DNA of 54,966 bases. Source: Saccoglossus kowalevskii. Lineage: Eukaryota > Hemichordata > Enteropneusta > Harrimaniidae. The translations under genes were made by a program, and so were the position numbers. Where the stretch lies: assembly GCF_000003605.2 (NCBI RefSeq), contig NW_003118431.1, forward strand, positions 1-54,966, read 5' to 3'. Under the pieces are notes generated by a model. That model was not told the origin of the DNA, did not search any database, and was given only the letters and a program-made list of their open reading frames with translations. The number at the start of each line of letters is the position of its first letter. Positions within the stretch are counted from its first letter, which is position 1. Positions 1,716 through 53,612 of this stretch are shown here, piece after piece.

Positions 1716-1820
1716 TGCCGTCAATTTCTGTGCCATATCTATTGTGCTTTGTATTGTGGAATGTGTGGTTATTTATGATAATAGCCTGGCCTTTTTTTCT
1801 AATATCATATTTTGGGATAT
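1716..1820 (-). CDS. Caspase, penultimate exon (start of p20 domain)
   Basis: This 105-bp exon encodes the N-terminal strand of the caspase catalytic domain. It contains KYDIRKKGQAIIINN followed by NRYGTEIDG, which matches the family pattern of a (R/K)GxAxIIN strand and then RxGTxxD. The Arg of RYG is the usual p20 contribution to the aspartate-binding S1 pocket. The acceptor is a pyrimidine-rich TTCTTTCTTTAG ending at 1821, and the donor is GTAAGT directly after 1716. Both flanking introns are phase 1. The exon starts almost exactly where caspase catalytic domains start, so the prodomain (DED, CARD or short) and the start codon must be in exons further upstream, at higher coordinates. I could not find them in this window. 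Confidence 0.92.
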
Positions 1821-2217
1821 CTAAAGAAAGAAAAAGTAAATCAATAATCTGTAACCTATATGTGGTGTGAAAACATTTGGAGGCAATGATAAAGACATAA
1901 ATGTCATTGTTTCTATCTTTGAAAATAGAATACATATCATATACATAGACTTACATATCATAAATAACTAACTGGCAAATCATGTTTACAGTATCGGCCA
2001 TGGTATTTCAGAGAATTCAGCCATTTTGAATCAAATCACAAACAAACTGAGGAGCCTTTTATGTGTGATGTAATTATTTTTATAAAAAGTTTGAAAAGAA
2101 TCAGAATAGAATATATAGTAAAAATTACATCAGAAATTAGTCTAGTATTATAGCCAAAACATTATTCCATAATTAATATTCATCTCTCTGAAATAAAGTC
2201 GTATTTTATTTTGACCT
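1821..2217. other. Upstream or intronic DNA of the caspase gene, no exon recognised
   Basis: This is unique AT-rich sequence between the first recognised caspase exon and the satellite edge. On the minus strand, a 12-codon frame starts at 2024 in a good initiation context (CAAAATGGCTG) and stops at 1986-1988. Its only internal GT would give a phase-2 donor, which does not fit the phase-1 exon at 1820. I therefore do not call it an exon. A GTAAGT also occurs on the minus strand at about 1953-1948, but every frame before it is closed. Confidence 0.5.
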
Positions 2218-2325
2218 ATGTTACCCAGTGTTTCTACAGTGACAGACGGTGTTGTCACCAGTGTTGCTACATGTCAAACAGTGTTGTCATTCATGTTGCT
2301 CAGCATTGCTACAGAGATATCTTGC
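2218..2325. repeat. Degenerate left edge of the 32-bp satellite
   Basis: This stretch is recognisably the satellite but strongly diverged. GTGTTGTCA starts at 2249 and again at 2281, exactly 32 bp apart, with GTTGCTA between them as in the main monomer. It differs from the interior by reading CAGTGTTG instead of CAGTATTG and TGTCA instead of ATATCA. It is separated from the main array by about 235 bp of non-repeat DNA. Confidence 0.85.
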
Positions 2326-2560
2326 GACCTGGCAAACAGAGAATTGAAGTATTTTTCTAGAAATGCATCATTTGTTGTCCATTCCCATATACACCAGTAA
2401 GAGCATATTTTAGAAGCATTTATTCCGGAGGTATGTTTATTTGGAACATGAGAGTAGATTCTTTCCCCTCCCCCCACACCGGTCTTGCTGCAGCACTTTG
2501 CACTGCCTAGGGCCTTTTTATTTTATTATTTGGCCTGTTGTTACAAGAGTATGGCCAGCT
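2326..2560. other. Non-repeat island inside the left satellite boundary
   Basis: About 235 bp without monomers separate the degenerate copies from the regular array. It contains a pyrimidine tract (CTTTCCCCTCCCCCC near 2461) and AT-rich stretches near 2518-2530. A minus-strand frame crosses it (2274-2477) but runs on into degenerate repeat and resembles nothing I know. It may be an insertion or an ancestral unique sequence that the array has grown past. No terminal repeats were seen. Confidence 0.55.
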
Positions 2561-2567
2561 ATTTCAC

Positions 2568-3250
2568 ACATTATTGTCACCTGTGGTGCTAGATATCACA
2601 CAATACTGTCACCTGTGCTGCTGGATAACACACATTATTGTCACCTGTGTTGTCAAATATCACACAGTACTGTCTTATGTGTTGCTAGATATCACACAGT
2701 ATTGTCACCTGTGTTGCTAGATATCACACAGTATTGTCACCTGTGTTGCTAGATATCGCACTGTATTGTCACCTGTGCTGTTAGATATCACACAGTATTG
2801 TCACCTGTGTTGTTAGATATCACACAGTATTGTCACCTGTGTTGCTAGATATCACACAGTATTGTCACCTGTGTTGCTAGATATCACACAGTATTGTCAC
2901 CTGTGTTGCTAGATATCACACAGTATTGTTTCCTGTGTTGTTAGATATCACCCAATACTGTCACCTGTGTTGCTAGATATCACAGAGTATTGTCACCTGT
3001 GTTGCTAGGTATCAAACAGTATTGTCACCAGTGTTGCTAGATATAACAAAGTATTGTCACCAGTGTTGCTAGATATCCTACAAAATTGTCACCTGTTTTA
3101 CTAGATATAACACAGTATTGTCACCAGTGTTGCTAGATACTACACAGTATTGTCACCTGTGTTGCTAGATATCACACAGTATTGTCACCTGTGTTGCTAG
3201 ATATCACACAGTATTGTTTCCTGTGTTGTTAGATATCACCCAATACTGTC
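2568..3250 (+). repeat. Left-edge array block, copy 1
   Basis: The first regular monomers carry rare variants: CTGTGGTGCTAG near 2581, CTGCTGGATAAC near 2620, GTCAAATATC near 2652 and CTGTCTTATG near 2672. The same series occurs in the same order at 17119-17800 at a constant offset of 14,551 bp. I checked the offset at GTGGTGC, at the TTTCCTG variant and at ATATAACAAA. One extra A near 3266 shifts the alignment by one base beyond this block. Confidence 0.85.
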
Positions 3251-6200
3251 ACCCGTGTTGCTAGAATATCACACAGTATTGTCACCTGTGTTGCTAGATA
3301 TCAAACAGTATTGTCATCTGTGTTGCTAGGTATCACACAGTGTTGTCACCTGTGTTGCTAGATATCACAGAGTATTGTCACCTGTGTTGCTAGATATCAA
3401 ACAGTATTGTCATCTGTGTTGCTAGGTATCACACAGTATTGTCACCTGTGTTGCCAGATATCGCACATTATTGTCACCTGTGTTGCTAGATATAACAAAG
3501 TATTGTCACCAGTGTTGCTAGATATCCTACAATATTGTCACCTGTTTTACTAGATATAACACAGTATTGTCACCAGTGTTGCTAGATACTACACAGTATT
3601 GTCACCTGTGTTGCTAGATATCACACAGTATTGTCACCAGTGTTGCTAGATATCACACTGTATTGTCACCTGTGTTGCTAGACATCGCACAATCTTGTCA
3701 CCTGTGTTGTTAGATATCACACAGTACTGTCACCTTTGTTGCTAGATATCACACAGTATTGCCACCTGTGTTGCAAGATATCACACAGTATTGTCACCTG
3801 TGCTGTTAGATATCAAACAGTATTGTCATATGTGTTGCTAGGTATCACAGTGTTGTCACCTGTGTTGCTAGATACCGCACAATATTGTCACCTGTGTTGT
3901 TAGATATCACACAGTATTGTCATATGTGTTGCTAGATATCAAACAGTATTGTCATATGTGTTGCTAGATATCACACAGTATTGTCACCTGTGTTGCTAGA
4001 TATCACACAGTATTGTTTCCTGTGTTGTTAGATATCACACTGTATTGTCACCTGTGTTGCTAGATATCACACAATATTGTCACCTGTGTTGTTAGATATC
4101 ACACTGTATTGTCATCTGTGTTGCTAGATATCACACAGTATTGTCGCCTGTGCTGTTAGATATCACACAGTGTTGTCACCTGTGTTGCTAGATATCACAC
4201 TGTATTGTCACCTGTGTTGCTAGATATCACACTGTATTGTCACCTGTGTTGCTAGATATCACACAATATTGTCACCTGTGTTGTTAGATATCACACTGTA
4301 TTGTCACCTGTGCTGTTAGATATCACACAGTATTGTCACCTGTGCTGTTAGATATCACACAGTATTGTCACCTGTGCTGTTAGATATCACACAGTATTGT
4401 CACCTGTGCTGTTAGATATCACACAGTTTTGTCACCCGTGTTGCTAGATATCACACAGTATTGTCACCTGTGTTGCTAGATATCAAACAGTATTGTCATC
4501 TGTGTTGCTAGGTATCACAGTGTTGTCACCTGTGTTGCTAGATATCACAGAGTATTGTCACCTGTGTTGCTAGATATCAAACAGTATTGTCATCTGTGTT
4601 GCTAGGTATCACACAGTATTGTCACCTGTGTTGCCAGATATCGCTCATTATTGTCACCTGTGTTGCTAGATATAACAAAGTATTGTCACCAGTGTTGCTA
4701 GATATCCTACAATATTGTCACCTGTTTTACTAGATATAACACAGTATTGTCACCAGTGTTGCTAGATACTACACAGTATTGTCACCTGTGTTGCTAGATA
4801 TCACACAGTATTGTCACCAGTGTTGCTAGATATCACACTGTATTGTCACCTGTGTTGCTAGACATCGCACAATCTTGTCACCTGTGTTGTTAGATATCAC
4901 ACAGTATTGTCATCTGTGTTGCTAGATATCAAACAGTATTGTCATATGTGTTGCTAGATATCACACAGTATTGTCACCTGTGTTGCTAGATATCACACAG
5001 TATTGTTTCCTGTGTTGTTAGATATCACACTGTATTGTCACCTGTGTTGCTAGATATCACACAATATTGTCACCTGTGTTGTTAGATATCACACTGTATT
5101 GTCACCTGTGTTGCTAGATATCACACAGTATTGTCACGTGTGCTGTTAGATATCACACAGTGTTGTCACCTGTGTTGCTAGATATCACACTGTATTGTCA
5201 CCTGTGTTGCTAGATATCACACAGTATTGTCACCTGTGTTGCTAGATATCACACAGTATTGTCACCTGTGTTGCTAGATATCACACAGTATTGTTTCCTG
5301 TGTTGTTAGATATCACCCAATACTGTCACCTGTGTTGCTAGATATCACAGAGTATTGTCACCTGTGTTGCTAGGTATCAAACAGTATTGTCACCAGTGTT
5401 GCTAGATATAACAAAGTATTGTCACCAGTGTTGCTAGATATCCTACAATATTGTCACCTGTTTTACTAGATATAACAGTATTGTCACCAGTGTTGCTAGA
5501 TTCTACACAGTATTGTCACCTGTGTTGCTAGATATCACACAGTATTGTCACCTGTGTTGCTAGATATCACACAGTATTGTTTCCTGTGTTGTTAGATATC
5601 ACCCAATACTGTCACCCGTGTTGCTAGATATCACACAGTATTGTCACCTGTGTTGCTAGATATCAAACAGTATTGTCATCTGTGTTGCTAGGTATCACAC
5701 AGTGTTGTCACCTGTGTTGCTAGATATCACAGAGTATTGTCACCTGTGTTGCTAGATATCAAACAGTATTGTCATCTGTGTTGCTAGGTATCACACAGTA
5801 TTGTCACCTGTGTTGCCAGATATCCCACATTATTGTCACCTGTGTTGCTAGATATAACAAAGTATTGTCACCAGTGTTGCTAGATATCCTACAATATTGT
5901 CACCTGTTTTACTAGATATAACACAGTATTGTCACCAGTGTTGCTAGATACTACACAGTATTGTCGCCTGTGCTGTTAGATATCACACAGTGTTGTCACC
6001 TGTGTTGCTAGATATCACACTGTATTGTCACCTGTGTTGCTAGATATCACACTGTATTGTCAGCTGTGTTGCTAGATATCACACAATATTGTCACCTGTG
6101 TTGTTAGATATCACACTGTATTGTCACCTGTGCTGTTAGATATCACACAGTATTGTCACCTGTGCTGTTAGATATCACACAGTATTGTCACCTGTGCTGT

Positions 6201-9200
6201 TAGATATCACACAGTATTGTCACCTGTGCTGTTAGATATCACACAGTATTGTTACCTGTGCTGTTAGATATCACACAGTATTGTCACCTGTGTTGCTAGA
6301 TATCAAACAGTATTGTCATCTGTGTTGCTAGATATCAAACAGTATTGTCATATGTGTTGCTAGGTATCACAGTGTTGTCACCTGTGTTGCTAGATATCAC
6401 ACAGTGTTGTCACCTGTGTTGCTAGATACCGCACAATATTGTCACCTGTGTTGTTAGATATCACACAGTATTGCCACCTGTGTTGCTAGATATCAAACAG
6501 TATTGTCATCTGTGTTGCTAGATATCAAACAGTATTGTCATATGTGTTGCTAGGTATCACAGTGTTGTCACCTGTGTTGCTAGATATCACACAGTGTTGT
6601 CACCTGTGTTGCTAGATACCGCACAATATTGTCACCTGTGTTGTTAGATATAACACTGTATTGTCACCTGTGTTGCTAGATATCACACAGTATTGTCACC
6701 TGTGTTGCTAGATATCACACAATATTGTTTCCTGTGTTGTTAGATATCACACTGTATTGTCACCTGTGTTGCTAGATATCGCACAATATTGTCACCTGTG
6801 TTGTTAAATATCACACAGTATTGTCATCTGTGTTGTTAGATATCACACAGTACTGTCACCTGTGTTGCTAGATATCACACAGTATTGCCACCTGTGTTGC
6901 TAGATTCTACACAGTATTGTCATATGTGTTGCTAGATATCACACAGTATTGTCACCTGTGTTGCTAGATATCACACAGTATTGTTTCCTGTGTTGTTAGA
7001 TATCACCCAATACTGTCACCCGTGTTGCTAGATATCACACAGTATTGTCACCTGTGTTGCTAGATATCAAACAGTATTGTCATCTGTGTTGCTAGGTATC
7101 ACACAGTGTTGTCACCTGTGTTGCTAGATATCACAGAGTATTGTCACCTGTGTTGCTAGATATCAAACAGTATTGTCATCTGTGTTGCTAGGTATCACAC
7201 AGTATTGTCACCTGTGTTGCCAGATATCGCACATTATTGTCACCTGTGTTGCTAGATATAACAAAGTATTGTCACCAGTGTTGCTAGATATCCTACAATA
7301 TTGTCACCTGTTTTACTAGATATAACACAGTATTGTCACCAGTGTTGCTAGATACTACACAGTATTGTCACCTGTGTTGCTAGATATCACACAGTATTGT
7401 CACCAGTGTTGCTAGATATCACACTGTATTGTCACCTGTGTTGCTAGATATCACACAGTATTGTCACCTGTGCTGTTAGATATCAAACAGTATTGTCATA
7501 TGTGTTGCTAGGTATCACAGTGTTGTCACCTGTGTTGCTAGATACCGCACAATATTGTCACCTGTGTTGTTAGATACCACACTGTATTGTCACCTGTGTT
7601 GCTAGATATCAAACAGTATTGTCATATGTGTTGCTAGATATCACACAGTATTGTCACCTGTGTTGCTAGATATCAAACAGTATTGTCATATGTGTTGTTA
7701 GATATCACACTGTTGTCACCTGTGTTGCTAGATATCACACAGTGTTGTCACCTGTGTTGCTAGATACCGCACAATATTGTCACCTGTGTTGTTAGATATC
7801 ACACAGTATTGCCACCTGTGTTGCTAGATATCAAACAGTATTGTCATCTGTGTTGCTAGATATCAAACAGTATTGTCATATGTGTTGCTAGGTATCACAG
7901 TGTTGTCACCTGTGTTGCTAGATATCACACAGTGTTGTCACCTGTGTTGCTAGATACCGCACAATATTGTCACCTGTGTTGTTAGATATCACACTGTATT
8001 GTCACCTGTGTTGCTAGATATCACACAGTATTGTCACCTGTGTTGCTAGATATCACACAGTATTGTTTCCTGTGTTGTTAGATATCACACTGTATTGTCA
8101 CCTGTGTTGCTAGATATCGCACAATATTGTCACCTGTGTTGTTAAATATCACACAGTATTGTCATCTGTGTTGTTAGATATCACACAGTACTGTCACCTG
8201 TGTTGCTAGATATCACACAGTATTGCCACCTGTGTTGCTAGATATCAAACAGTATTGTCATCTGTGTTGCTAGATATCAAACAGTATTGTCATATGTGTT
8301 GCTAGATATCACACAGTATTGTCACCTGTGTTGCTAGATATCACACAGTATTGTTTCCTGTGTTGTTAGATATCACACTGTATTGTCACCTGTGTTGCTA
8401 GATATCACACAATATTGTCACCTGTGTTGTTAGATATCACACTGTATTGTCACCTGTGTTGCTAGATATCACACAGTATTGTCACCTGTGCTGTTAGATA
8501 TCACACAGTGTTGTCACCTGTGTTGCTAGATATCACACTGTATTGTCACCTGTGTTGCTAGATATCACACAGTATTGTCACCTGTGTTGCTAGATATCAC
8601 ACAGTATTGTCACCTGTGTTGCTAGATATCACACAGTATTGTTTCCTGTGTTGTTAGATATCACCCAATACTGTCACCTGTGTTGCTAGATATCACAGAG
8701 TATTGTCACCTGTGTTGCTAGGTATCAAACAGTATTGTCACCAGTGTTGCTAGATATAACAAAGTATTGTCACCAGTGTTGCTAGATATCCTATAATATT
8801 GTCACCTGTTTTACTAGATATAACACAGTATTGTCACCAGTGTTGCTAGATACTACACAGTATTGTCACCTGTGTTGCTAGATATCACACAGTATTGTCA
8901 CCTGTGTTGCTAGATATCACACAGTATTGTTTCCTGTGATGTAAGATATCACCCAATACTGTGTTGCTAGATATCACACAGTATTGTTTCCTGTGTTGTT
9001 AGATATCACCCAATACTGTCACCCGTGTTGCTAGATATCACACAGTATTGTCACCTGTGTTGCTAGATATCAAACAGTATTGTCATCTGTGTTGCTAGGT
9101 ATCACACAGTGTTGTCACCTGTGTTGCTAGATATCACAGAGTATTGTCACCTGTGTTGCTAGATATCAAACAGTATTGTCATCTGTGTTGCTAGGTATCA

Positions 9201-12200
9201 CACAGTATTGTCACCTGTGTTGCCAGATATCGCACATTATTGTCACCTGTGTTGCTAGATATAACAAAGTATTGTCACCAGTGTTGCTAGATATCCTACA
9301 ATATTGTCACCTGTTTTACTAGATATAACACAGTATTGTCACCAGTGTTGCTAGATACTACACAGTATTGTCACCTGTGTTGCTAGATATCACACTGTAT
9401 TGTCACCTGTGTTGCTAGATATCACACAGTATTGTCACCTGTGTTGCTAGATATCACACAGTATTGTCACCTGTGTTGTTAAATATCACACAGTATTGTC
9501 ACCTGTGTTGCTAGATATCACACAGTATTGTCACCTGTGTTGCTAGATATCACACTGTATTGTCACCTGTGTTGCTAGATATCACACAATATTGTCACCT
9601 GTGTTGTTAGATATCATACTGTATTGACATCTGTGTTGCTAGATATCACACAGTATTGTCACCTGTGCTGTTAGATATCACACAGTATTGTCACCTGTGC
9701 TGTTAGATATCACACAGTATTGTCACCTGTGCTGTTAGATATCACACAGTATTGTCACCTGTGCTGTTAGATATCACACAGTATTGTTACCTGTGCTGTT
9801 AGATATCACACAGTATTGCCACCTGTGTTGCTAGATATCAAACAGTATTGTCATATGTGTTGCTAGGTATCACAGTGTTGTCACCTGTGTTGCTAGATAT
9901 CACACAGTGTTGTCACCTGTGTTGCTAGATACCGCACAATATTGTCACCTGTGTTGTTAGATACCACACTGTATTGTCACCTGTGCTGCTAGATATCAAA
10001 CAGTATTGTCATATGTGTTGCTAGATATCACACAGTATTGTCACCTGTGTTGCTAGATATCACACAGTATTGTTTCCTGTGTTGTTAGACATCACACTGT
10101 ATTGTCACCTGTGTTGCTAGATATCACACAATATTGTCACCTGTGTTGTTAGATATCACACTGTATTGTCATCTGTGTTGCTAGATATCACACAGTATTG
10201 TCACCTGTGCTGTTAGATATCACACAGTGTTGTCACCTGTGTTGCTAGATATCACACTGTATTGTCACCTGTGTTGCTAGATATCACACAATATTGTCAC
10301 CTGTGTTGTTAGATATCACACTGTATTGTCATCTGTGTTGCTAGATATCACAGTATTGTCACCTGTGCTGTTAGATATCACACAGTATTGCCATCTGTGT
10401 TGCTAGATATCACAGTATTGTCACCTGTGTTGCTAGATATCACACAGTATTGTTTCCTGTGTTGTTAGATATCACACTGTATTGTCACCTGTGTTGCTAG
10501 ATAACTCACAATATTGTCACCTGTGTTGTTAGATATCACACTGTATTGTCACCTGTGTTGCTAGATATCACACAGTATTGTCACCTGTGCTGTTAGATAT
10601 CACACAGTGTTGTCACCTGTGTTGCTAGATATCACACTGTATTGTCACCTGTGTTGCTAGATATCACACAATATTGTCACCTGTGTTGTTAGATATCATA
10701 CTGTATTGACATCTGTGTTGCTAGATATCACACAGTATTGTCTCCTGTGCTGTTAGATATCACACAATATTGTCACCTGTGCTGTTAGATATCACACAGT
10801 ATTGTCACCTGTGCTGTTAGATATCACACAGTATTGTCACCTGTGCTGTTAGATATCACACAGTATTGTTACCTGTGCTGTTAGATATCACACAGTATTG
10901 CCACCTGTGTTGCTAGATATCAAACAGTATTGTCATCTGTGTTGCTAGATATCAAACAGTACTGTCATATGTGTTGCTTGGTATCACAGTGTTGTCACCT
11001 GTGTTGCTAGATATCACACAGTGTTGTCACCTGTGTTGCTAGATGCCGCACAATATTGTCACCTGTGTTGTTAGATATCACACTGTATTGTCACCTGTGT
11101 TGCTAGATATCACACAGTATTGTCACCTGTGTTGCTAGATATCACACAGTATTGTTTCCTGTGTTATTAGATATCACACTGTATTTTTAACCTGTGTTGC
11201 TAGATATCACACAATATTGTCACCTGTGTTGTTAGATATCATACTGTATTGTCACCTGTGTTGCTAGATATCACACAGTATTGTCACCTGTGCTGTTAGA
11301 TATCACACAGTGTTGTCACCTGTGTTGCTAGATATCACACTGTATTGTCACCTGTGTTGCTAGGTATCACAGTGTTGTCACCTGTGTTGCTAGATATCAC
11401 ACAGTGTTGTCACCTGTGTTGCTAGATACCGCACAATATTGTCACCTGTGTTGTTAGATACCACACTGTATTGTCACCTGTGTTGCTAGATATCAAACAG
11501 TATTGTCACCTGTGTTGCTAGATATCACACAGTATTGTTTCCTTTGTTGTTAGATATCACACTGTATTGTCACCTGTGTTGCTAGATATCACACAATATT
11601 GTCACCTGTGTTGTTAGATATCACACTGTATTGTCATCTGTGTTGCTAAATATCACACAGTATTGTCACCTGTGCTGTTAGATATCACACAGTGTTGTCA
11701 CCTGTGTTGCTAGATATCACACTGTATTGTCACCTGTGTTGCTAGATATCACACAATATTGTCACCTGTGTTGTTAGATATCACACTGTATTGTCACCTG
11801 TGTTGCTAGATATCACACAGTATTGTCACCTGTGCTGTTAGATATCACACAGTATTGTCACCTGTGCTGTTAGATATCACACAGTATTGTCACCTGTGCT
11901 GTTAGATATCACACAGTATTGTCACCTGTGCTGTTAGATATCACACAGTATTGTTACCTGTGCTGTTAGATATCACACAGTATTGCCACCTGTGTTGCTA
12001 TATATCACACTGTATTGTCACCTGTGTTGCTAGATATCACACAGTATTGTCACCTGTGCTGTTAGATATCACACAGTGTTGTCACCTGTGTTGCTAGATA
12101 TCACACTGTATTGTCACCTGTGTTGCTAGATATCACACAATATCGTCACCTGTGTTGTTAGATATCACACTGTATTGTCACCTGTGTTGCTAGATATCAC

Positions 12201-12929
12201 ACAGTATTGTCACCTGTGCTGTTAGATATCACACAGTATTGTCACCTGTGCTGTTAGATATCACACAGTATTGTCACCTGTGCTATTAGATATCACACAG
12301 TATTGTCACCTGTGCTGTTAGATATCACACAGTATTGTTACCTGTGCTGTTAGATATCACACAGTATTGCCACCTGTGTTGCTAGATATCAAACAGTACT
12401 GTCATATGTGTTGCTTGGTATCACAGTGTTGTCACCTGTGTTGCTAGATATCACACAGTGTTGTCACCTGTGTTGCTAGATACCGCACAATATTGTCACC
12501 TGTGTTGTTAGATATCACACTGTATTGTCACCTTTGTTGCTAGATATCACACAGTATTGTCACCTGTGTTGCTAGATATCACACAGTATTGTTTCCTGTG
12601 TTGTTAGATATCACACTGTATAGTCACCTGTGTTGCTAGATATCGCACAATATTGTCACCTGTGTTGTTAGATATCACACAGTATTGTCATCTGTGTTGT
12701 TAGATATCACACAGTACTGTCACCTGTGTTGCTAGATATCACACAGTATTGCCACCTGTGTTGCTAGATATCAAACAGTATTGTCACCTGTGTTGCTAGA
12801 TATCACAAAGTATTGTCACCTGTGTTGTTATATATCACACAGTATTGTTTCCTGTGTTGTTAGATATCACACTGTATTGTCACCTGTGTAGCTAGATATC
12901 ACACAATATTGTCACCTGTGTTGTTAGAT

Positions 12930-14800
12930 ATCACACTGTATTGTCACCTGTGTTGCTAGATATCACACAGTATTGTCACCTGTGCTGTTAGATATCACAC
13001 TGTGTTGTCACCTGTGTTGCTAGATACCGCACAATATTGTCACCTGTGTTGTTAGATATCACACTGTATTGTCACCTGTGTTGCTAGATATCACACAGTA
13101 TTGTCACCCGTGTTGCTAGATATCACACAGTATTGTTTCCTGTGTTGTTAGATATCACACTGTATTGTCACCTGCGTTGCTAGATATCACACAATATTGT
13201 CACCTGTGTTGTTAGATATCACACTGTATTGTCACCTGTGTTGCTAGATATCCCACAGTATTGTCACCTGTGCTGTTAGATATCACACAGTGTTGTCACC
13301 TGTGTTGCTAGATATCACACAGTATTGTCACCTGTGCTGTTAGATATCACACAGTGTTGTCACCTGTGTTGCTAGATATCACACTGTATTGTCACCTGTG
13401 TTGCTAGATATCACACAATATTGTCACCTGTGTTGTTAGATATCACACAGTATTGTCACCTGTGCTGTTAGATATCACACAGTATTGTCATCTGTGTTGC
13501 TAGATATCACAGTATTGTCACCTGTGTTGCTAGATATCACACAGTATTGTTTCCTGTGTTGTTAGATATCACACTGTATTGTCACCTGTGTTGCTAGATA
13601 ACTCACAATATTGTCACCTGTGTTGTTAGATATCACACTGTATTGTCACCTGTGTTGCTAGATATCACACAGTATTGTCACCTGTGCTGTTAGATATCAC
13701 ACAGTGTTGTCACCTGTGTTGCTAGATATCACACTGTATTGTCACCTGTGTTGCTAGATATCACACAATATTGTCACCTGTGTTGTTAGATATCACACTG
13801 TATTGTCAACTGTGTTGCTAGATATCACACAGTATTGTCACCTGTGCTGTTAGATATCACACAGTATTGTCACCTGTGCTGTTAGATATCACACAGTATT
13901 GTCACCTGTGCTGTTAGATATCACACAGTATTGTCACCTGTGCTGTTAGATATCACACAGTATTGTCACCTGTGCAGTTAGATATCACACAGTATTGTCA
14001 CCTGTGCTGTTAGATATCACACAGTATTGTCACCTGTGCTGTTCGATATCACACAGTATTGTCACCTGTGCTGTTAGATATCACACAGTATTGTCACCTG
14101 TGCTGTTAGATATCACACAGTATTGTCACCTGTGCTGTTAGATATCACACAGTATTGTTACCTGTGCTGTTAGATATCACACAGTATTGCCACCTGTGTT
14201 GCTAGATATCAAACAGTATTGTCATATGTGTTGCTAGGTATCACAGTGTTGTCACCTGTGTTGCTAGATATCACACAGTATTGTCATATGTGTTGCTAGA
14301 TATCACACAGTATTGTCACCTGTGTTGCTAGATACCACACTGTATTGTCACCTGTGTTGCTAGATATCAAACAGTATTGTCATATCTGTTGCTACATATC
14401 ACACAGTATTGTCACCTGTGTTGCTAGATATCACACAGTATTGTTTCCTGTGTTGTTAGATATCACACTGTATTGTCACCTGTGTTGCTAGATATCACAC
14501 AATATTGTCACCTGTGTTGTTAGATATCACACTGTATTGTCATCTGTGTTGCTAGATATCACACAGTATTGTCACCTGTGCTGTTAGATATCACACAGTG
14601 TTGTCACCTGTGTTGCTAGATATCACACTGTATTGTCACCTGTGTTGCTAGATATCACACAATATTGTCACCTGTGTTGTTAGATATCACACTGTATTGT
14701 CACCTGTGTTGCTAGATATCACACAGTATTGTCACCTGTGCTGTTAGATATCACACAGTATTGTCACCTGTGCTGTTAGATATCACACAGTATTGTCACC
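12930..14800 (+). repeat. Array block with GCTGTTCGATATC marker, copy 1
   Basis: This block of about 1.9 kb contains a run of about 11 monomers of the CTGTGCTGTTAG type, one of which has the rare TTCGATATC change at 14041. It matches 36225-38100 at exactly 23,295 bp, checked at three markers (13001, 14041, 14581). Part of it matches around 45390-46400 at 31,525 bp. The limits are approximate. Confidence 0.8.
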
Positions 14801-17118: not shown

Positions 17119-17800
17119 ACATTATTGTCACCTGTGGTGCTAGATATCACACAATACTGTCACCTGTGCTGCTGGATAACACACATTATTGTCACCTGTG
17201 TTGTCAAATATCACACAGTACTGTCTTATGTGTTGCTAGATATCACACAGTATTGTCACCTGTGTTGCTAGATATCACACAGTATTGTCACCTGTGTTGC
17301 TAGATATCGCACAATATTGTCACCTGTGCTGTTAGATATCACACAGTATTGTCACCTGTGTTGTTAGATATCACACAGTATTGTCACCTGTGTTGCTAGA
17401 TATCACACAGTATTGTCACCTGTGTTGCTAGATATCACACAGTATTGTCACCTGTGTTGCTAGATATCACACAGTATTGTTTCCTGTGTTGTTAGATATC
17501 ACCCAATACTGTCACCTGTGTTGCTAGATATCACAGAGTATTGTCACCTGTGTTGCTAGGTATCAAACAGTATTGTCACCAGTGTTGCTAGATATAACAA
17601 AGTATTGTCACCAGTGTTGCTAGATATCCTACAATATTGTCACCTGTTTTACTAGATATAACACAGTATTGTCACCAGTGTTGCTAGATACTACACAGTA
17701 TTGTCACCTGTGTTGCTAGATATCACACAGTATTGTCACCTGTGTTGCTAGATATCACACAGTATTGTTTCCTGTGTTGTTAGATATCACCCAATACTGT
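17119..17800 (+). repeat. Left-edge array block, internal copy 2
   Basis: This is an internal copy of the block at the left end of the array (2568-3250), including the rare GGTGCTAG, CTGGATAAC, TCAAATATC and GTCTTATG variants. It shows that edge sequence has been moved or copied about 14.5 kb into the array in the same orientation. Confidence 0.85.
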
Positions 17801-18379
17801 CACCCGTGTTGCTAGATATCACACAGTATTATCACCTGTGTTGCTAGATATCAAACAGTATTGTCATCTGTGTTGCTAGGTATCACACAGTGTTGTCACC
17901 TGTGTTGCTAGATATCACAGAGTATTGTCACCTGTGTTGCTAGATATCAAACAGTATTGTCATCTGTGTTGCTAGGTATCACACAGTATTGTCACCTGTG
18001 TTGCTAGATATCGCACATTATTGTCACCTGTGTTGCTAGATATAACAAAGTATTGTCACCAGTGTTGCTAGATATCCTTCAATATTGTCACCTGTTTTAC
18101 TAGATATAACACAGTATTGTCACCAGTGTTGCTAGATACTACACATTATTGTCACCTGTGTTGCTAGATATCACACAGTATTGTCACCTGTGTTGCTAGA
18201 TATCACACAGTATTGTTTCCTGTGTTGTTAGATATCACCCAATACTGTCACCTGTGTTGCTAGATATCATACAGTATTGTCACCTGTGTTGCTAGATATC
18301 AAACAGTATTGTCATCTGTGTTGCTAGGTATCACACAGTGTTGTCACCTGTGTTGCTAGATATCACAGAGTATTGTCAC

Positions 18380-41100: not shown

Positions 41101-44100
41101 TGTTGCTAGACATCGCACAATCTTGTCACCTGTGTTGTTAGATATCACACAGTACTGTCACCTTTGTTGCTAGATATCACACAGTATTGCCACCTGTGTT
41201 GCTAGATATCACACAGTATTGTCACCTGTGCTGTTAGATATCACACAGTGTTGTCACCTGTGTTGCTAGATATCACACTGTATTGTCACCTGTGTTGCTA
41301 GATATCACACAATATTGTCACCTGTGTTGTTAGATATCACACTGTATTGTCACCTGTGTTGCTAGATATCACACAGTATTGTCACCTGTGCTGTTAGATA
41401 TCACACAGTATTGTCACCTGTGCTGTTAGATATCACACAGTATTGTCACCTGTGCTGTTAGATATCACACAGTATTGTCACCTGTGCTGTTAGATATCAC
41501 ACAGTATTGTTACCTGTGCTGTTAGATATCACACAGTATTGCCACCTGTGTTGCTAGATATCAAACAGTATTGTCATCTGCGTTGCTAGATATCAAACAG
41601 TACTGTCATATGTGTTGCTTGGTATCACAGTGTTGTCACCTGTGTTGCTAGATATCACACAGTGTTGTCACCTGTGTTGCTAGATGCCGCACAATATTGT
41701 CACCTGTGTTGTTAGATATCACACTGTATTGTCACCTGTGTTGCTATATATCACACAGTATTGTCACCTGTGTTGCTAGATATCACACAGTATTGTTTCC
41801 TGTGTTGTTAGATATCACACTGTATTTTAACCTGTGTTGCTAGATATCACACAATATTGTCACATGTGTTGTTAGATATCACACTGTATTGTCACCTGTG
41901 TTGCTAGATATCACACAGTATTGTCACCTGTGTTGCTAGGTATCACAGTGTTGTCACCTGTGTTGCTAGATATCACACAGTGTTGTCACCTGTGTTGCTA
42001 GATACCGCACAATATTGTCACCTGTGTTGTTAGATATCACACTGTATTGTCACCTGTGTTGCTAGATATCACACAATATTGTCACCTGTGTTGTTAGATA
42101 TCACACTGTATTGTCACCTGTGTTGCTAGATATCACACAGTATTGTCACCTGTGTTGCTAGATATCACACAGTATTGTCACCTGTGTTGCTAGATATCAC
42201 ACAGTATTGTTTCCTGTGTTGTTAGATATCACCCAATACTGTCACCTGTGTTGCTAGATATCACAGAGTATTGTCACCTGTGTTGCTAGGTATCAAACAG
42301 TATTGTCACCAGTGTTGCTAGATATAACAAAGTATTGTCACCAGTGTTGCTAGATATCCTACAATATTGTCACCTGTTTTACTAGATATAACAGTATTGT
42401 CACCAGTGTTGCTAGATTCTACACAGTATTGTCACCTGTGTTGCTAGATATCACACAGTATTGTCACCTGTGTTGCTAGATATCACACAGTATTGCCACC
42501 TGTGTTGCTAGATATCAAACAGTATTGTCATCTGTGTTGCTAGATATCAAACAGTATTGTCATATGTGTTGCTAGGTATCACAGTGTTGTCACCTGTGTT
42601 GCTAGATATCACACAGTGTTGTCACCTGTGTTGCTAGACATCGCACAATCTTGTCACCTGTGTTGTTAGATATCACACAGTACTGTCACCTTTGTTGCTA
42701 GATATCACACAGTATTGCCACCTGTGTTGCTAGATATCACACAGTATTGTCACCTGTGCTGTTAGATATCAAACAGTATTGTCATATGTGTTGCTAGGTA
42801 TCACAGTGTTGTCACCTGTGTTGCTAGATATCACACAGTGTTGTCACCTGTGTTGCTAGATACCGCACAATATTGTCACCTGTGTTGTTAGATATCACAC
42901 AGTATTGCCACCTGTGTTGCTAGATATCAAACAGTATTGTTTCCTGTGTTGTTAGATATCACACTGTATTGTCACCTGTGTTGCTAGATATCACACAATA
43001 TTGTCACCTGTGTTGTTAGATATCACACTGTATTGTCACCTGTGTTGTTAGATATCACACAGTATTGTCACCTGTGCTGTTAGATATCACACAGTGTTGT
43101 CACCTGTGTTGCTAGATATCACACTGTATTGTCACCTGTGTTGCTAGGTATCACAGTGTTGTCACCTGTGTTGCTAGATATCACACAGTGTTGTCACCTG
43201 TGTTGCTAGATACCGCACAATATTGTCACCTGTGTTGTTAGATACCACACTGTATTGTCACCTGTGTTGCTAGATATCAAACAGTATTGTCATATGTGTT
43301 GCTAGATATCACACAGTATTGTCACCTGTGTTGCTAGATATCACACAGTATTGTTTCCTGTGTTGTTAGATATCACACTGTATTGTCACCTGTGTTGCTA
43401 GATATCACACAATATTGTCACCTGTGTTGTTAGATATCACACTGTATTGTCATCTGTGTTGCTAGATATCACACAGTATTGTCGCCTGTGCTGTTAGATA
43501 TCACACAGTGTTGTCACCTGTGTTGCTAGATATCAAACAGTATTGTCATCTGTGTTGCTAGATATCAAACAGTATTGTCATATGTGTTGCTAGATATCAC
43601 ACAGTATTGTCACCTGTGTTGCTAGATATCACACAGTATTGTTTCCTGTGTTGTTAGATATCACACTGTATTGTCACCTGTGTTGCTAGATATCACACAA
43701 TATTGTCACCTGTGTTGTTAGATATCACACTGTATTGTCACCTGTGTTGCTAGATATCACACAGTATTGTTACCTGTGCTGTTAGATATCACACAGTATT
43801 GCCACCTGTGTTGCTAGATATCAAACAGTATTGTCATATGTGTTGCTAGGTATCACAGTGTTGTCACCTGTGTTGCTAGATATCACACAGTGTTGTCACC
43901 TGTGTTGCTAGATACCGCACAATATTGTCACCTGTGTTGTTAGATACCACACTGTATTGTCACCTGTGTTGCTAGATATCAAACAGTATTGTCATATGTG
44001 TTGCTAGATATCACACAGTATTGTCACCTGTGTTGCTAGATATCACACAGTATTGTTTCCTGTGTTGTTAGACATCACACTGTATTGTCACCTGTGTTGC

Positions 44101-45389
44101 TAGATATCACACAATATTGTCACCTGTGTTGTTAGATATCACACTGTATTGTCATCTGTGTTGCTAGATATCACACAGTATTGTCACCTGTGCTGTTAGA
44201 TATCACACAGTGTTGTCACCTGTGTTGCTAGATATCACACTGTATTGTCACCTGTGTTGCTAGATATCACACAATATTGTCACCTGTGCTGTTAGATATC
44301 ACACAGTATTGTCACCTGTGCTGTTAGATATCACACAGTATTGTTACCTGTGCTGTTAGATATCACACAGTATTGTCACCTGTGTTGCTAGATATCAAAC
44401 AGTATTGTCATCTGTGTTGCTAGATATCAATCAGTATTGTCATATGTGTTGCTAGGCATCACAGTGTTGTCACCTGTGTTGCTAGATATCACACAGTGTT
44501 GTCACCTGTGTTGCTAGATACCGCACAATATTGTCACCTGTGTTGTTAGATATCACACAGTATTGCCACCTGTGTTGCTAGATATCAAACAGTATTGCCA
44601 TCTGTGTTGCTAGATATCAAACAGTATTGTCATATGTGTTGCTAGGTATCACAGTGTTGTCACCTGTGTTGCTAGATATCACACAGTGTTGTCACCTGTG
44701 TTGCTAGATACCGCACAATATTGTCACCTGTGTTGTTAGATATCACACTGTATTGTCACCTGTGTTGCTAGATATCACACAGTATTGTCACCTGTGTTGC
44801 TAGATATCACACCGTATTGTTTCCTGTGTTGTTAGATATCACACTGTATTGTCACCTGTGTTGCTAGATATCGCACAATATTGTCACCTGTGTTGTTAGA
44901 TATCACACAGTATTGTCATCTGTGTTGTTAGATATCACACAGTACTGTCACCTGTGTTGCTAGTATCACACAGTATTGCCACCTGTGTTGCTAGATATCA
45001 AACAGTATTGCCATCTGTGTTGCTAGATATCAAACAGTATTGTCATATGTGTTGCTAGATATCACACGGTATTGTCACCTGTGTTGCTAGATATCACACA
45101 GTATTGTTTCCTGTGTTGTTAGATATCACACTGTATTGTCACCTGTGTTGCTAGATATCACACAATATTGTCACCTGTGTTGTTAGATATCACACTGTAT
45201 TGTCACCTGTGTTGCTAGATATCACACAGTATTGTCACCTGTGCTGTTAGATATCACACAGTGTTGTCACCTGTGTTGCTAGATATCACACTGTATTGTC
45301 ACCTGTGTTGCTAGATATCACACAATATTGTCACCTGTGTTGTTAGATATCACACTGTATTGTCACCTGTGTTGCTAGATATCACACAG

Positions 45390-46400
45390 TATTGTCACCT
45401 GTGCTGTTAGATATCACACAGTATTGTCACCTGTGCTGTTAGATATCACACAGTATTGTCACCTGTGCTGTTAGATATCACACAGTATTGTCACCTGTGC
45501 TGTTAGATATCACACAGTATTGTCACCTGTGCTGTTAGATATCACACAGTATTGTCACCTGTGCTGTTCGATATCACACAGTATTGTCACCTGTGCTGTT
45601 AGATATCACACAGTATTGTCACCTGTGCTGTTAGATATCACACAGTATTGTCACCTGTGCTGTTAGATATCACACAGTATTGTTACATGTGCTGTTAGAT
45701 ATCACACAGTATTGCCACCTGTGTTGCTAGATATCAAACAGTATTGTCATATGTGTTGCTAGGTATCACAGTGTTGTCACCTGTGTTGCTAGATATCACA
45801 CAGTATTGTCATATGTGTTGCTAGATATCACACAGTATTGTCACCTGTGTTGCTAGATACCACACTGTATTGTCACCTGTGTTGCTAGATATCAAACAGT
45901 ATTGTCATATCTGTTGCTAGATATCACACAGTATTGTCACCTGTGTTGCTAGATATCACACAGTATTGTTTCCTGTGTTGTTAGATATCACACTGTATTG
46001 TCACCTGTGTTGCTAGATATCACACAATATTGTCACCTGTCTTGTTAGATATCACACTGTATTGTCATCTGTGTTGCTAGATATCACACAGTATTGTCAC
46101 CTGTGCTGTTAGATATCACACAGTGTTGTCACCTGTGTTGCTAGATATCACACTGTATTGTCACCTGTGTTGCTAGATATCACACAATATTGTCACCTGT
46201 GTTGTTAGATATCACACTGTATTGTCACCTGTGTTGCTAGATATCACACAGTATTGTCACCTGTGCTGTTAGATATCACACAGTATTGTCACCTGTGCTG
46301 TTAGATATCACACAGTATTGTCACCTGTGCTGTTAGATATCACACAGTATTGTCACCTGTGCTGTTAGATATCACACAGTATTGTTACCTGTGCTGTTAG
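45390..46400 (+). repeat. Array block with GCTGTTCGATATC marker, copy 3
   Basis: The marker GTTCG lies at 45566, which is 31,525 bp from copy 1 and 8,230 bp from copy 2. It shares the rare CATATCTGTTGCTA variant with copy 1 and not with copy 2, so it is closer to copy 1 at that point. Confidence 0.75.
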
Positions 46401-49400
46401 ATATCACACAGTATTGTCACCTGTGTTGCTAGATATCAAACAGTATTGTCATCTGTGTTGCTAGATATCAAACAGTATTGTCATATGTGTTTGCTAGGTA
46501 TCACAGTGTGTCACCTGTGTTGCTAGATATCACACAGTTTTGTCACCTGTGTTGTTAGATACCGCACAATATTGTCACCTGTGTTGTTAGATATCACACA
46601 GTATTGTCACCTGTGTTGCTAGATATCACACAGTATTGTCACCTGTGTTGCTAGATATCACACAGTATTGTTTCCTGTGTTGTTAGATATCACACTGTAT
46701 TGTCACCTGTGTTGCTAGATATCGCACAATATTGTCACCAGTGTTGTTATATATCACACAGTATTGTCATCTGTGTTGTTAGATATCACACAGTACTGTC
46801 ACCTGTGTTGCTAGATATCACACAGTATTGCCACCTGTGTTGCTAGATATCAAACAGTATTGTCATCTGTGTTGCTAGATATCAAACAGTATTGTCATAT
46901 GTGTTGCTAGATATCACACAGTATTGTCACCTGTGTTGCTAGATATCACACAGTATTGTTTCCTGTGTTGTTAGATATCACACTGTATTGTCACCTGTGA
47001 TGCTAGATGTCACACAATATTGTCACCTGTGTTGTTAGATATCACACTGTATTGTCACCTGTGTTGTTAGATATCACACAGTATTGTCACCTGTGCTGTT
47101 ATATATCACACAGTGTTGTCACCTGTGTTGCTAGATATCACACTGTATTGTCACCTGTGTTGCTAGATATCAAACAGTATTGTTTCCTGTGTTGTTAGAT
47201 ATCACACTGTATTGTCACCTGTGTTGCTAGATATCGCACAATATTGTCACCTGTGTTGTTAAATATCACACAGTATTGTCATCTGTGTTGTTAGATATCA
47301 CACAGTACTGTCACCTGTGTTGCTAGATATCACACAGTATTGCCACCTGTGTTGCTAGATATCAAACAGTATTGTCACCTGTGTTGCTAGATATCACACA
47401 GTATTGTCACCTGTGTTGCTAGATATCACACAGTATTGTTTCCTGTGTTGTTAGATATCACCCAATACTGTCACCTGTGTTGCTAGATATCACAGAGTAT
47501 TGTCACCTGTGTTGCTAGGTATCAAACAGTATTGTCACCAGTGTTGCTAGATATAACAAAGTATTGTCACCAGTGTTGCTCGATATCCTACAATATTGTC
47601 ACCTGTTTTACTAGATATAACAGTATTGTCACCAGTGTTGCTAGATACTACACAGTATTGTCACCTGTGTTGCTAGATATCACACAGTATTGTCACCTGT
47701 GTTGCTAGATATCACACAGTATTGTTTCCTGTGTTGTTAGATATCACCCAATACTGTCACCCGTGTTGCTAGATATCACACAGTATTGTCACCTGTGTTG
47801 CTAGATATCAAACAGTATTGTCATCTGTGTTGCTAGGTATCACACAGTGTTGTCACCTGTGTTGCTAGATATCACAGAGTATTGTCACCTGTGTTGCTAG
47901 ATATCAAACAGTATTGTCATCTGTGTTGCTAGGTATCACACAGTATTGTCACCTGTGTTGCCAGATATCGCACATTATTGTCACCAGTGTTGCTAGATAT
48001 TCTACAATATTGTCACCTGTTTTACTAGATATAACACAGTATTGTCACCAGTGTTGCTAGATACTACACAGTATTGTCACCTGTGTTGCTAGATATCACA
48101 CTGTATTGTCACCTGTGTTGCTAGACATCGCACAATCTTGTCACCTGTGTTGTTAGATATCACACAGTACTGTCACCTTTGTTGCTAGATATCACACAGT
48201 ATTGCCACCTGTGTTGCTAGATATCACACAGTATTGTCACCTGTGCTGTTAGATATCAAACAGTATTGTCATATGTGTTGCTAGGTATCACAGTGTTGTC
48301 ACCTGTGTTGCTAGATACCGCACAATATTGTCACCTGTGTTGTTAGATACCACACTGTATTGTCACCTGTGTTGCTAGATATCAAACAGTATTGTCATAT
48401 GTGTTGCTAGATATCACACAGTATTGTCACCTGTGTTGCTAGATATCACACAGTATTGTTTCCTGTGTTGTTAGATATCACACTGTATTGTCACCTGTGT
48501 TGCTAGATATCACACAATATTGTCACCTGTGTTGTTAGATATCACACTGTATTGTCATCTGTGTTGCTAGATATCACACAGTATTGTCGCCTGTGCTGTT
48601 AGATATCACACAGTGTTGTCACCTGTGTTGCTAGATATCACACTGTATTGTCACCTGTGTTGCTAGATATCACACTGTATTGTCACCTGTGTTGCTAGAT
48701 ATCACACAATATTGTCACCTGTGTTGTTAGATATCACACTGTATTGTCACCTGTGCTGTTAGATATCACACAGTATTGTCACCTGTGCTGTTAGATATCA
48801 CACAGTATTGTCACCTGTGCTGTTAGATATCACACAGTATTGTTTCCTGTGTTGTTAGATATCACACTGTATTGTCACCTGTGTTGCTAGATATCACACA
48901 ATATTGTCACCTGTGTTGTTAGATATCACACTGTATTGTCATCTGTGTTGCTAGATATCACACAGTATTGTCACCTGTGCTGTTAGATATCACACAGTGT
49001 TGTCACCTGTGTTGCTAGATATCACACTGTATTGTCACCTGTGTTGCTAGATATCACACAATATTGTCACCTGTGTTGTTAGATATCACACTGTATTGTC
49101 ACCTGTGTTGCTAGATATCACACAGTATTGTCACCTGTGCTGTTAGATATCACACAGTATTGTCACCTGTGCTGTTAGATATCACACAGTATTGTCACCT
49201 GTGCTGTTAGATATCACACAGTATTGTCACCTGTGCTGTTAGATATCACACAGTATTGTTACCTGTGCTGTTAGATATCACACAGTATTGTCACCTGTGT
49301 TGCTAGATATCAAACAGTATTGTCATCTGTGTTGCTAGATATCAAACAGTATTGTCATATGTGTTGCTAGGTATCACAGTGTTGTCACCTGTGTTGCTAG

Positions 49401-50823
49401 ATATCACACAGTGTTGTCACCTGTGTTGCTAGACACCGCACTATATTGTCACCTGTGTTGTTAGATATCACACAGTATTGCCACCTGTGTTGCTAGATAT
49501 CAAACAGTATTGTCATCTGTGTTGCTAGATATCAAACAGTATTGTCATATGTGTTGCTAGGTATCACAGTGTTGTCACCTGTGTTGCTAGATATCACACA
49601 GTGTTGTCACCTGTGTTGCTAGATACCGCACAATAATGTCACCTGTGTTGTTAGATATCACACTGTATTGTCACCTGTGTTGCTAGATATCACACAGTAT
49701 TGTCACCTGTGTTGCTAGATATCACACAGTATTGTTTCCTGTGTTGTTAGATATCACACTGTATTGTCACCTGTGTTGCTAGATATCGCACAATATTGTC
49801 ACCTGTGTTGTTAAATATCACACAGTATTGTCATCTGTGTTGTTAGATATCACACAGTACTGTCACCTGTGTTGCTAGATATCACACAGTATTGCCACCT
49901 GTGTTGCTAGATATCAAACAGTATTGTCATCTGTGTTGCTAGATATCAAACAGTATTTCATATGTGTTGCTAGATATCACACAGTATTGTCACCTGTGTT
50001 GCTAGATATCACACAGTATTGTTTCCTGTGTTGTTAGATATCACACTGTATTGTCACCTGTGTTGCTAGATATCACACAATATTGTCACCTGTGTTGTTA
50101 GATATCACACTGTATTGTCACCTGTGTTGTTATATATCACACAGTATTGTCACCTGTGCTGTTAGATATCACACAGTGTTGTCACCTGTGTTGCTAGATA
50201 TCACACTGTATTGTCACCTGTGTTGCTAGGTATCACAGTGTTGTCACCTGTGTTGCTAGATATCACACAGTGTTGTCACCTGTGTTGCTAGATACCGCAC
50301 AATATTGTCACCTGTGTTGTTAGATACCACACTGTATTGTCACCTGTGTTGCTAGATATCAAACAGTATTGTTTCCTGTGTTGTTAGATATCACACTGTA
50401 TTGTCACCTGTGTTGCTAGATATCACACAATATTGTCACCTGTGTTGTTAGATATCACACTGTATTGTCATCTGTGTTGCTAGATATCACACAGTATTGT
50501 CGCCTGTGCTGTTAGATATCACACAGTGTTGTCACCTGTGTTGCTAGATATCACACTGTATTGTCACCAGTGTTGCTAGATATCACACTGTATTGTCACC
50601 TGTTTTGCTAGATATCACACAATATTGTCACCTGTGTTGTTAGATATCACACTGTATTGTCACCTGTGCTGTTAGATATCACACAGTATTGTCACCTGTG
50701 CTGTTAGATATCACACAGTATTGTCATCTGTGCTGTTAGATATCACACAGTATTGTCACCTGTTTTGTTAGATATCACACAGTATTGTTACCTGTGCTGT
50801 TAGATATCACACAATATTGTCAC

Positions 50824-52535
50824 CTGTGTTGCTAGATATCAAACAGTATTGTCATCTGTGTTGCTAGGTATCACACAGTATTGTCACCTGTGTTGCCAGA
50901 TATCGCACATTATTGTCACCTGTGTTGCTAGATATAACAAAGTATTGTCACCAGTGTTGCTAGATATCCTACAATATTGTCACCTGTTTTACTAGATATA
51001 ACACAGTATTGTCACCAGTATTGCTAGATACTACACAGTATTGTCACCTGTGTTGCTAGATATCACACAGTATTGTCACCAGTGTTGCTAGATATCACAC
51101 TGTATTGTCACCTGTGTTGCTAGACATCGCACAATCTTGTCACCTGTGTTGTTAGATATCACACAGTACTGTCACCTTTGTTGCTAGATATCACACAGTA
51201 TTGCCACCTGTGTTGCTAGATATCACAGAGTATTGTCACCTGTGCTGTTAGATATCACACAGTGTTGTCACCTGTGTTGCTAGATATCACACTGTATTGT
51301 CACCTGTGTTGCTAGATATCACACAATATTGTCACCTGTGTTGTTAGATATCACACTGTATTGTCACCTGTGTTGATAGATATCACACAGTATTGTCTCC
51401 TGTGCTGTTAGATATCACACAGTATTGTCACCTGTGCTGTTAGATATCACACAGTATTGTCACCTGTGCTGTTAGATATCACACAGTATTGTCACCTGTG
51501 CTGTTAGATATCACACAGTATTGTTACCTGTGCTGTTAGATATCACACAGTATTGCCACCTGTGTTGCTAGATATCAAACAGTATTGTCATCTGTGTTGC
51601 TAGATATCAAACAGTACTGTCATATGTGTTGCTTGGTATCACAGTGTTGTCACCTGTGTTGCTAGATATCACACAGTGTTGTCACCTGTGTTGCTAGATG
51701 CCGCACAATATTGTCACCTGTGTTGTTAGATATCACACTGTATTGTCACCTGTGTTGCTAGATATCACACAGTATTGTCACCTGTGTTGCTAGATATCAC
51801 ACAGTATTGTTTCCTGTGTTATTAGATATCACACTGTATTTTTAACCTGTGTTGCTAGATATCACACAATATTGTCACCTGTGTTGTTAGATATCATACT
51901 GTATTGTCACCTGTGTTGCTAGATATCACACAGTATTGTCACCTGTGCTGTTAGATATCACACAGTGTTGTCACCTGTGTTGTTAGATATCACACTGTAT
52001 TGTCACCTGTGTTGCTAGGTATCACAGTGTTGTCACCTGTGTTGCTAGATATCACACAGTGTTGTCACCTGTATTGCTAGATACCGCACAATATTGTCAC
52101 CTGTGTTGTTAGATACCACACTGTATTGTCACCTGTGTTGCTAGATATCAAACAGTATTGTCATATGTATTGCTAGATATCACACAGTATTGTCACCTGT
52201 GTTGCTAGATATCACACAGTATTGTTTCCTTTGTTGTTAGATATCACACTGTATTGTCACCTGTGTTGTTAGATATCACACAATATTGTCACCTGTGTTG
52301 TTAGATATCACACTGTATTGTCATCTGTGTTGCTAAATATCACACAGTATTGTCACCTGTGCTGTTAGATATCACACAGTGTTGTCACCTGTGTTGCTAG
52401 ATATCACATTGTATTGTCACCTGTGTTGCTAGATATCACACAATATTGTCACCTGTGTTGTTAGATATCACACTGTATTGTCACCTGTGTTGCTAGATAT
52501 CACACAGTATTGTCACCTGTGCTGTTAGATATCAC
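50824..52535 (+). repeat. Array block with TGATAGATATC and TATTTTTAACC markers, copy 4
   Basis: Markers fall at 50895 (GCCAGATATC), 51375 (GATAG), 51835 (TGTATTTTTA) and 52067 (ACCTGTATTG), matching the block at 18380-20060. The offset steps from 32,444 to 32,476 through gain or loss of exactly one monomer. Confidence 0.8.
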
Positions 52536-52599
52536 ACAGTGTTGTCACCTGTGTTGCTAGATACCGCACAATATTGTCACCTGTGTTGTTAGATATCAC

Positions 52600-53160
52600 A
52601 CTGTATTGTCACCTGTGTTGCTAGATATCACACAGTATTGTCACCTGTGTTGCTAGATATCACACAGTATTGTTTCCTGTGTTGTTAGATATCACACTGT
52701 ATTGTCACCTGTGTTGCTAGATATCACACAATATTGTCACCTGTGTTGTTAGATATCACACTGTATTGTCACCTGTGTTGCTAGATATCACACAGTATTG
52801 TCACCTGTGCTGTTAGATATCGCACAGTGTTGTCACCTGTGTTGCTAGATATCACACAGTATTGTCACCTGTGTTGCTAGATATCACACAATATTGTCAC
52901 CTGTGTTGTTAGATATCACACTGTATTGTCACCTGTGTTGCTAGATATCACACAGTATTGTCACCTGTGCTGTTAGATATCACACAGTATTGTCACCAGC
53001 GCTGTTGGATACCACACAGTATTGTCACCTGTGTTGCTAGATATCACACAGTATTGTCACCTGTGTTGCTAGATATCACACAATATTGTTTCCTGTTTTG
53101 TTAGATATCACACTGTATTGTCACCTGTGTTGCTAGATATCACACAATATTGTCACCTGT
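52600..53160 (+). repeat. Right-edge array block
   Basis: These are the last homogeneous monomers before the degenerate edge. They hold TTAGATATCGCACAG (52813), CAGCGCTGTTGGATACC (about 52997) and TTTCCTGTTTTG (about 53089). The same series is found inside the array at 21890-22440. Confidence 0.75.
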
Positions 53161-53510
53161 GTTGCTAGATATCACACAATATTGTCACCTGTGTTGTTAG
53201 ATATCACACTGTATTGTCACCTGTGTTGCTAGATATCACACAGTATTGTCACCTGTGCTGTTAGATATGACACAGTATTGTCACCTGTGCTGTTAGATAT
53301 CACACAGTATTGTCACCTGTGCTGTTAGATATCACACAGTATTGTCACCTGTGCTGTTAGATATCACACAGTATTGTCACCTGTGCTGTTAGATATCACA
53401 CCGTATTGTCACCTGTGTTGCTAGATATCACACAGTACTGTCACCTGTGTTGCTAAATATCACATTATTGTCACCTTTGTTGCGAGATATCACAGTTTTG
53501 TCACCTATGT

Positions 53511-53612
53511 TGCCTCAATGTCATATGGGTTTGTCACTAGTGTTGCTATAGTGTCACTCAGTGTTGTCACCAGTGTTGTTGCTAGTGTCATACAGTGTTG
53601 TCACATGGGTCT
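53511..53612. repeat. Degenerate right edge of the 32-bp satellite
   Basis: Diverged monomers read GTTGCTATAGTGTCACTCAG and GTTGCTAGTGTCATACAG, with GTGTTGTCAC at 53561 and 53595 (34 bp apart). As at the left edge, they have CAGTGTTG in place of the interior CAGTATTG and GTGTCA in place of GATATCA. Decay is gradual from about 53450. Confidence 0.85.

Follow-up and report, generated by a model that had tools for sequence, protein, structure and literature searches.

The window analysed here, a stretch of 54,966 nucleotides from the hemichordate Saccoglossus kowalevskii (contig NW_003118431.1), carries on its minus strand the 3′ portion of an animal caspase gene and, beside it, a minisatellite array of 51 kb. 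We propose, with a probability of about 0.7, that this array fills ~98% of a single caspase intron of ~51.9 kb, which would run from a short candidate exon (exon A) to the first exon of the protease domain (exon B). The initial annotation had already placed a 51-kb satellite within or directly upstream of a caspase gene, an association borne out by Tandem Repeats Finder, which delimits the array at 2564-53604, and by a Pfam caspase match with an E-value of 2e-57. The features that carry the argument are the following:

562..1190, minus strand: caspase exon C, encoding most of p20 and all of p10, with the motifs SHGDEG and QACQG, ending in TAA (caspase-3 alignments, Pfam PF00656).
1716..1820, minus strand: caspase exon B, with which the protease domain begins (IPKYDIRKKGQAIIINN...), having a phase-1 acceptor, a phase-1 donor and no Met (splice scoring, translation).
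1821..53705, minus strand: proposed intron from exon A to exon B, 51,885 bp, ~98% of it array (repeat and splice data).
2564..53604, no strand assigned: minisatellite array of ~1,600 head-to-tail 32-bp units (Tandem Repeats Finder and unit alignment).
53706..53762, minus strand: candidate exon A, 57 nt, phase 1/1, encoding the peptide TRSLEEVFEKTCTVTPPL, then D at the exon B junction (splice scoring and flank simulation; moderate support).

Exon B, whose donor scores 6.4, splices in phase 1 to exon C (acceptor score 10.4) to give 243 open codons ending in TAA. The match to the Pfam family Peptidase_C14 (PF00656) spans positions 2-233 of the 233 positions of the profile and residues 29-261 of the query, which also contained the exon A residues, these lying outside the matched part. 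SHGDEG and QACQG of exon C align with SHGEEG and QACRG of caspase-3; we take the His of the former and the Cys of the latter to be the catalytic residues, and the p20 and p10 subunit names are likewise assumed. Among the best 60 of 233 PDB matches, caspase-3 ranks first (151.6 bits) with caspase-8 near (147.6 bits), and these close scores leave the caspase subtype unsettled. When exons B and C were compared by tblastn with 28 pattern matches from genome_contigs and 5 from viral_contigs, no relative was found.

That these exons are only a fragment, namely a caspase duplicate lacking its 5′ part and lying beside an unrelated satellite, with no functional gene, is very improbable. Such a remnant would fit the missing prodomain match in the flank fragments scanned (detailed below) and the absence of any AATAAA or ATTAAA in sense on the 3′ side of the stop codon, from 561 to 1 within the window. 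It fits poorly with a reading frame open throughout, with the presence of the His and Cys motifs and with an alignment to caspase-3 interrupted by short gaps only.

The initial annotation also held that exon B opens the protease domain behind a phase-1 acceptor, and both points are confirmed, the acceptor scoring 10.0. Because the domain starts at exon B, which contains no Met (the first Met of exon C, in HQMYGEI, is well within the domain), a spliced exon B requires an upstream exon. The earlier claim of such a requirement therefore holds for the spliced form, the alternative being an unspliced start at an ATG at 1935. In some or all transcripts, exon B would then be part of a first exon beginning at this ATG, the protein would have a short N-terminus, and the array would lie upstream, near the promoter. 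The frame of exon B is indeed open upstream to 1950 (43 codons), with the ATG at 1935 in frame, but this extension reads across the strong acceptor and its polypyrimidine tract, translated as LLFLSL, and of five stretches scored for amino-acid make-up it resembles protein least (-9.8 bits). We regard the short start as improbable, and the open frame upstream of exon B as intron read-through.

The candidate for the upstream exon, exon A, lies ~100 bp past the right edge of the array, just past the span covered by the initial annotation. Its acceptor, TTTATTTTGTACATACAG/A (the slash marking the splice junction), scores 6.4 and its donor, TAG/GTATGA, scores 5.9; its frame is open, and its phase-1 donor joins exon B in frame through the junction codon GAT. 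When a donor score of at least 5.5, an acceptor score of at least 6 and a length of 30-500 nt were required, exon A was the sole candidate of any phase on both strands of both flanks. The amino-acid composition of exon A resembles that of coding sequence: out of 707 overlapping open 18-aa windows (a pool made of introns and flanks, exon A itself included), 13.0% score as high. In the left flank, from the array to exon B, no exon with a phase-1 donor was scored, even with both thresholds at 3. A phased candidate exon past the array, together with the absence of any phase-1-donor exon to its left, favours an intronic placement. Of the two placements initially offered, within an intron or at the promoter, the first thus gains from exon A, and the second finds no phase-1-donor exon in the left flank. 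The earlier statement that no upstream exon is visible stands for the left flank, but probably does not hold for the 1.35 kb on the far side of the array.

Several results weigh against exon A. The strict splice thresholds (5.5/6) were chosen after it had been seen, and the splice-site weights behind all splice scores given here were assumed, not fitted to S. kowalevskii. On a codon score trained on exons B and C it performs poorly, 75.0% of the 707 windows being equal or better. Among 1,000 first-order simulated flanks of 1,033 bp, 15.6% contained a strict candidate with a phase-1 donor, and 8.5% held one as long and as good as exon A. Within the 51 kb of the array itself, the strict thresholds return one phase-1 candidate, of 32 nt (8933-8902). 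Lowering both thresholds to 3 yields six phase-1 candidates of at least 24 nt in the right flank, one of which (54532-54498) totals 13.8 vs 12.4 for exon A; with a minimum of 30 nt, there are 5 phase-1 candidates on the sense strand and 4 on the opposite strand, or 13 and 7 when all phases are counted. Finally, no prodomain (DED or CARD, as expected of an initiator caspase of the caspase-8/-10 type) was matched by Pfam in the 10 fragments scanned of the 33 minus-strand flank fragments that are open over at least 25 aa; upstream exons may lie outside the window. At thresholds of 5/5, the sense strand of the array shows three candidate exons, 32-37 nt long, and a phase-1 donor belongs to one of these.

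These points give substance to the view that exon A is a chance match and that the true exon is elsewhere in the right flank or past 54966. The best-placed competitor is the following:

54498..54537, minus strand: weaker candidate exon SSKNHYRTIQDST, with a phase-1 donor (8.3) joinable to exon A or B and a weak acceptor (3.9); speculative.

Besides the simulated rates and the poor codon score of exon A, this view has on its side the stronger donor at 54498 and the higher total score there, reached when the candidate starts at 54532 instead of 54537. Against it, no flank candidate other than exon A clears both strict splice thresholds, and exon A has a coding-like composition whereas 54537-54498 does not (-2.3 bits). 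We hold a chance match to be unlikely, although it retains some weight, and exon A to be probably a genuine exon. Should another right-flank exon, or an exon past 54966, turn out to be the true one, the array would be intronic all the same; in our judgement, which is not a computed value, an intronic position through exon A or another upstream exon is highly probable.

With exon A as the upstream exon, the array would be flanked by a short linker exon on one side and by the first exon of the protease domain on the other. It would be transcribed in the caspase pre-mRNA and then removed within a single intron of ~51.9 kb. The array, exons B and C, their matching phases and the block duplications described below are established by the sequence analysis; we infer that exon A is used, that the array is transcribed and that its origin is neutral: most likely, it represents repeat growth that has been tolerated, without a dedicated role. 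Plausible side effects are that transcription takes longer and that sequences resembling 5′ splice sites follow one another in a long unpaired series.

The structure of the array is consistent with such growth in place. Tandem Repeats Finder reports a 32-bp unit in 1,599.5 copies with 88% matches and a score of 78,098; the copies are in tandem, head to tail, and their unit falls within the 10-100 bp that define a minisatellite or satellite. Decomposition against the consensus yields 1,595 core units, which fall into 227 distinct types, when units with starts below 53450 are counted (1,596 with starts to 53460). When the flanks are included, 1,514 of 1,611 aligned units measure 32 bp and 62 measure 30 bp. 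Identity to the consensus is flat in the interior, at 0.930-0.938 per 100 units, and drops at the two ends, to 0.897 in one bin and 0.858 in the other. The edges comprise:

2225..2307, no strand assigned: diverged units of the repeat, to the left of the main array, with copies at 69% and 66% identity (Tandem Repeats Finder for 2225-2289, unit alignment).
2308..2563, no strand assigned: stretch of ~256 bp without recognisable units, between the left diverged units and the main array (unit alignment).
~53490-53604, no strand assigned: diverged units at the right array edge (unit alignment).

No inverted repeats were found in 2200-2640. The gap between array and exon B also holds an open stretch of 82 codons (2277-2522, minus strand) without a Pfam match.

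No strong higher-order repeat of fixed period was detected, whether by column identity (lags of 1-400 units) or by exact units (lags of 1-800 units); the maxima were an exact-unit agreement of 0.089 (0.041 by chance) and a column identity of 0.892 (0.886 after shuffling). Block duplications do occur within the array; the largest comprises 57 units (score 47), of which 91% are identical to their counterparts 730 units away, the best block score being 4 after the unit order was shuffled (one shuffle only). Taken together, the diverged units at the edges, the flat interior identity, the lack of a strong period and the block duplications point to growth in place through exchange between misaligned copies. 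A 32-bp minisatellite would thus have expanded to 51 kb within the intron by slippage, unequal exchange or gene conversion.

The same data bear on a misjoin, in which array and caspase exons would not be genomic neighbours. Assemblies are prone to fail at long repeat arrays, and this counts in favour of an artefact. On both sides, however, diverged units lead towards the unique flank, and the longest exact duplication inside the array is 1,006 bp, a length that long reads should be able to resolve. We consider a misjoin extremely improbable.

Searches for relatives or functions of the repeat were negative within their scope: 30-nt and 26-nt pieces of the unit had no exact match in viral_contigs and genome_contigs, the Rfam scan gave no match at gathering thresholds, and the NCBIfam scan gave none. 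A structural role of the array RNA or DNA is not claimed, as the folding of four sense units is not clearly stronger than that of shuffles: z-scores were -0.97 for RNA and -1.37 for DNA, with 29 of 200 and 15 of 200 shuffles, respectively, equally stable.

Introns filled with satellite DNA have precedents. According to PMC6508621 and PMC11207136, the gigantic Y-linked genes kl-3, kl-5 and ORY of Drosophila contain intronic satellite DNA that is transcribed, and these genes are spliced co-transcriptionally. The caspase locus would resemble them in carrying satellite DNA in an intron of a protein-coding gene. It would differ in that the Drosophila genes have megabase introns made of simple satellites such as (AATAT)n and are testis genes, whereas here a single proposed intron of 52 kb, with a 32-bp unit, belongs to a caspase gene. 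An invertebrate parallel is offered by the HSP70 introns of Mytilus galloprovincialis, which contain satellites (Kourtidis 2006, as cited in PMC7492417); the likeness would again be a satellite in introns of a protein gene. No description of a satellite in a caspase intron was recognised in the literature searched, among the matches listed; PMC8878197 had no bearing on the array. The present locus would join the known satellite-filled introns, and would be unusual both in the gene concerned and in that a single minisatellite would make up ~98% of the proposed intron.

The repeat unit has a further property in the sense of the gene. CAGGTGA is present in 1,063 of 1,596 units on that strand, and the sequence CAG/GTGACA within the sense unit scores 7.7 as a 5′ splice site, which exceeds the donor scores of exons A and B but not the 8.3 of the 54498 candidate. 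At this score or better, the array holds 1,060 sites in sense and 0 in antisense; at a minimum of 5.9, the counts are 1,184 and 1. The first CAGGTGA lies 261 nt beyond the exon A donor. Good acceptor-like sites on the sense strand are few: the counts are 397 at a score of at least 3, 47 at 4, 6 at 5 and 1 at 6. AATAAA and ATTAAA are absent from both strands of the array, as expected of a uniform unit.

This motif raises the question of a length-variable regulator of a cell-death protease, in which U1 small nuclear ribonucleoprotein (snRNP) would bind along the nascent transcript and copy number would tune whether synthesis of the caspase pre-mRNA runs to its end, with the prodomain-side exons spliced in, or stops early. 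We find this regulatory scheme quite improbable. TCACCTG, the motif on the opposite strand, is retained in 66.6% of units and ranks 10 of 26 non-wrapping heptamers; it is thus no better kept than its neighbours and not singled out. Among random units of the same make-up (20,000 trials), 3.2% (letters shuffled) to 5.5% (first-order) contain a 5′ site of this kind on a given strand, so that the motif may be an accident. Selection on it is supported by neither result. An influence of array length on caspase expression, as suggested in the initial annotation, is a matter of speculation.

Comparable signals are on record. PMC4526556 describes minisatellite units of IFI6 that serve as splice donors, and PMC2082412 describes In100 of caspase-2 and In100-like elements as decoy splice signals in caspase introns. 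With IFI6, the S. kowalevskii array shares minisatellite units that, read in the direction of the gene, resemble 5′ splice sites, a likeness found here at the sequence level; the IFI6 units are used as donors, whereas the present ~1,600 units, in a proposed intron, are known from sequence. The IFI6 array is reportedly short and abuts an exon. With In100, the common point would be decoy splice signals within introns of a caspase gene, the difference being that the putative decoys here are 5′ sites in a satellite. Since both minisatellite donors and caspase-intron decoys have been described, the idea of a splice decoy is testable and not outlandish.

If the proposed placement is true, the locus is a compact case of a gene obliged to transcribe a satellite over its whole length, and one for which timing is important in cell death. 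Length differences between individuals are frequent in arrays of this type; with naturally occurring length alleles, one could measure directly what an intronic satellite costs, or does to, transcription and splicing. Should the array be neutral, it illustrates the amount of satellite that an intron can tolerate.

Some minor observations complete the description of the window. The array contains 1,117 CAGGTG/CACCTG and 1,287 GATATC, both of which occur in the consensus unit; the former, presumably an E-box, overlaps the splice-like motif. A second minisatellite, at 1-398, has a unit of ~64 bp in 6.5 copies and starts ~160 bp 3′ of the stop codon. A third, at 53843-54171, upstream of candidate exon A, consists of 8.2 copies of 40 bp with a 97% match. 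With three unrelated minisatellites near a single gene, the genome may be prone to repeats.

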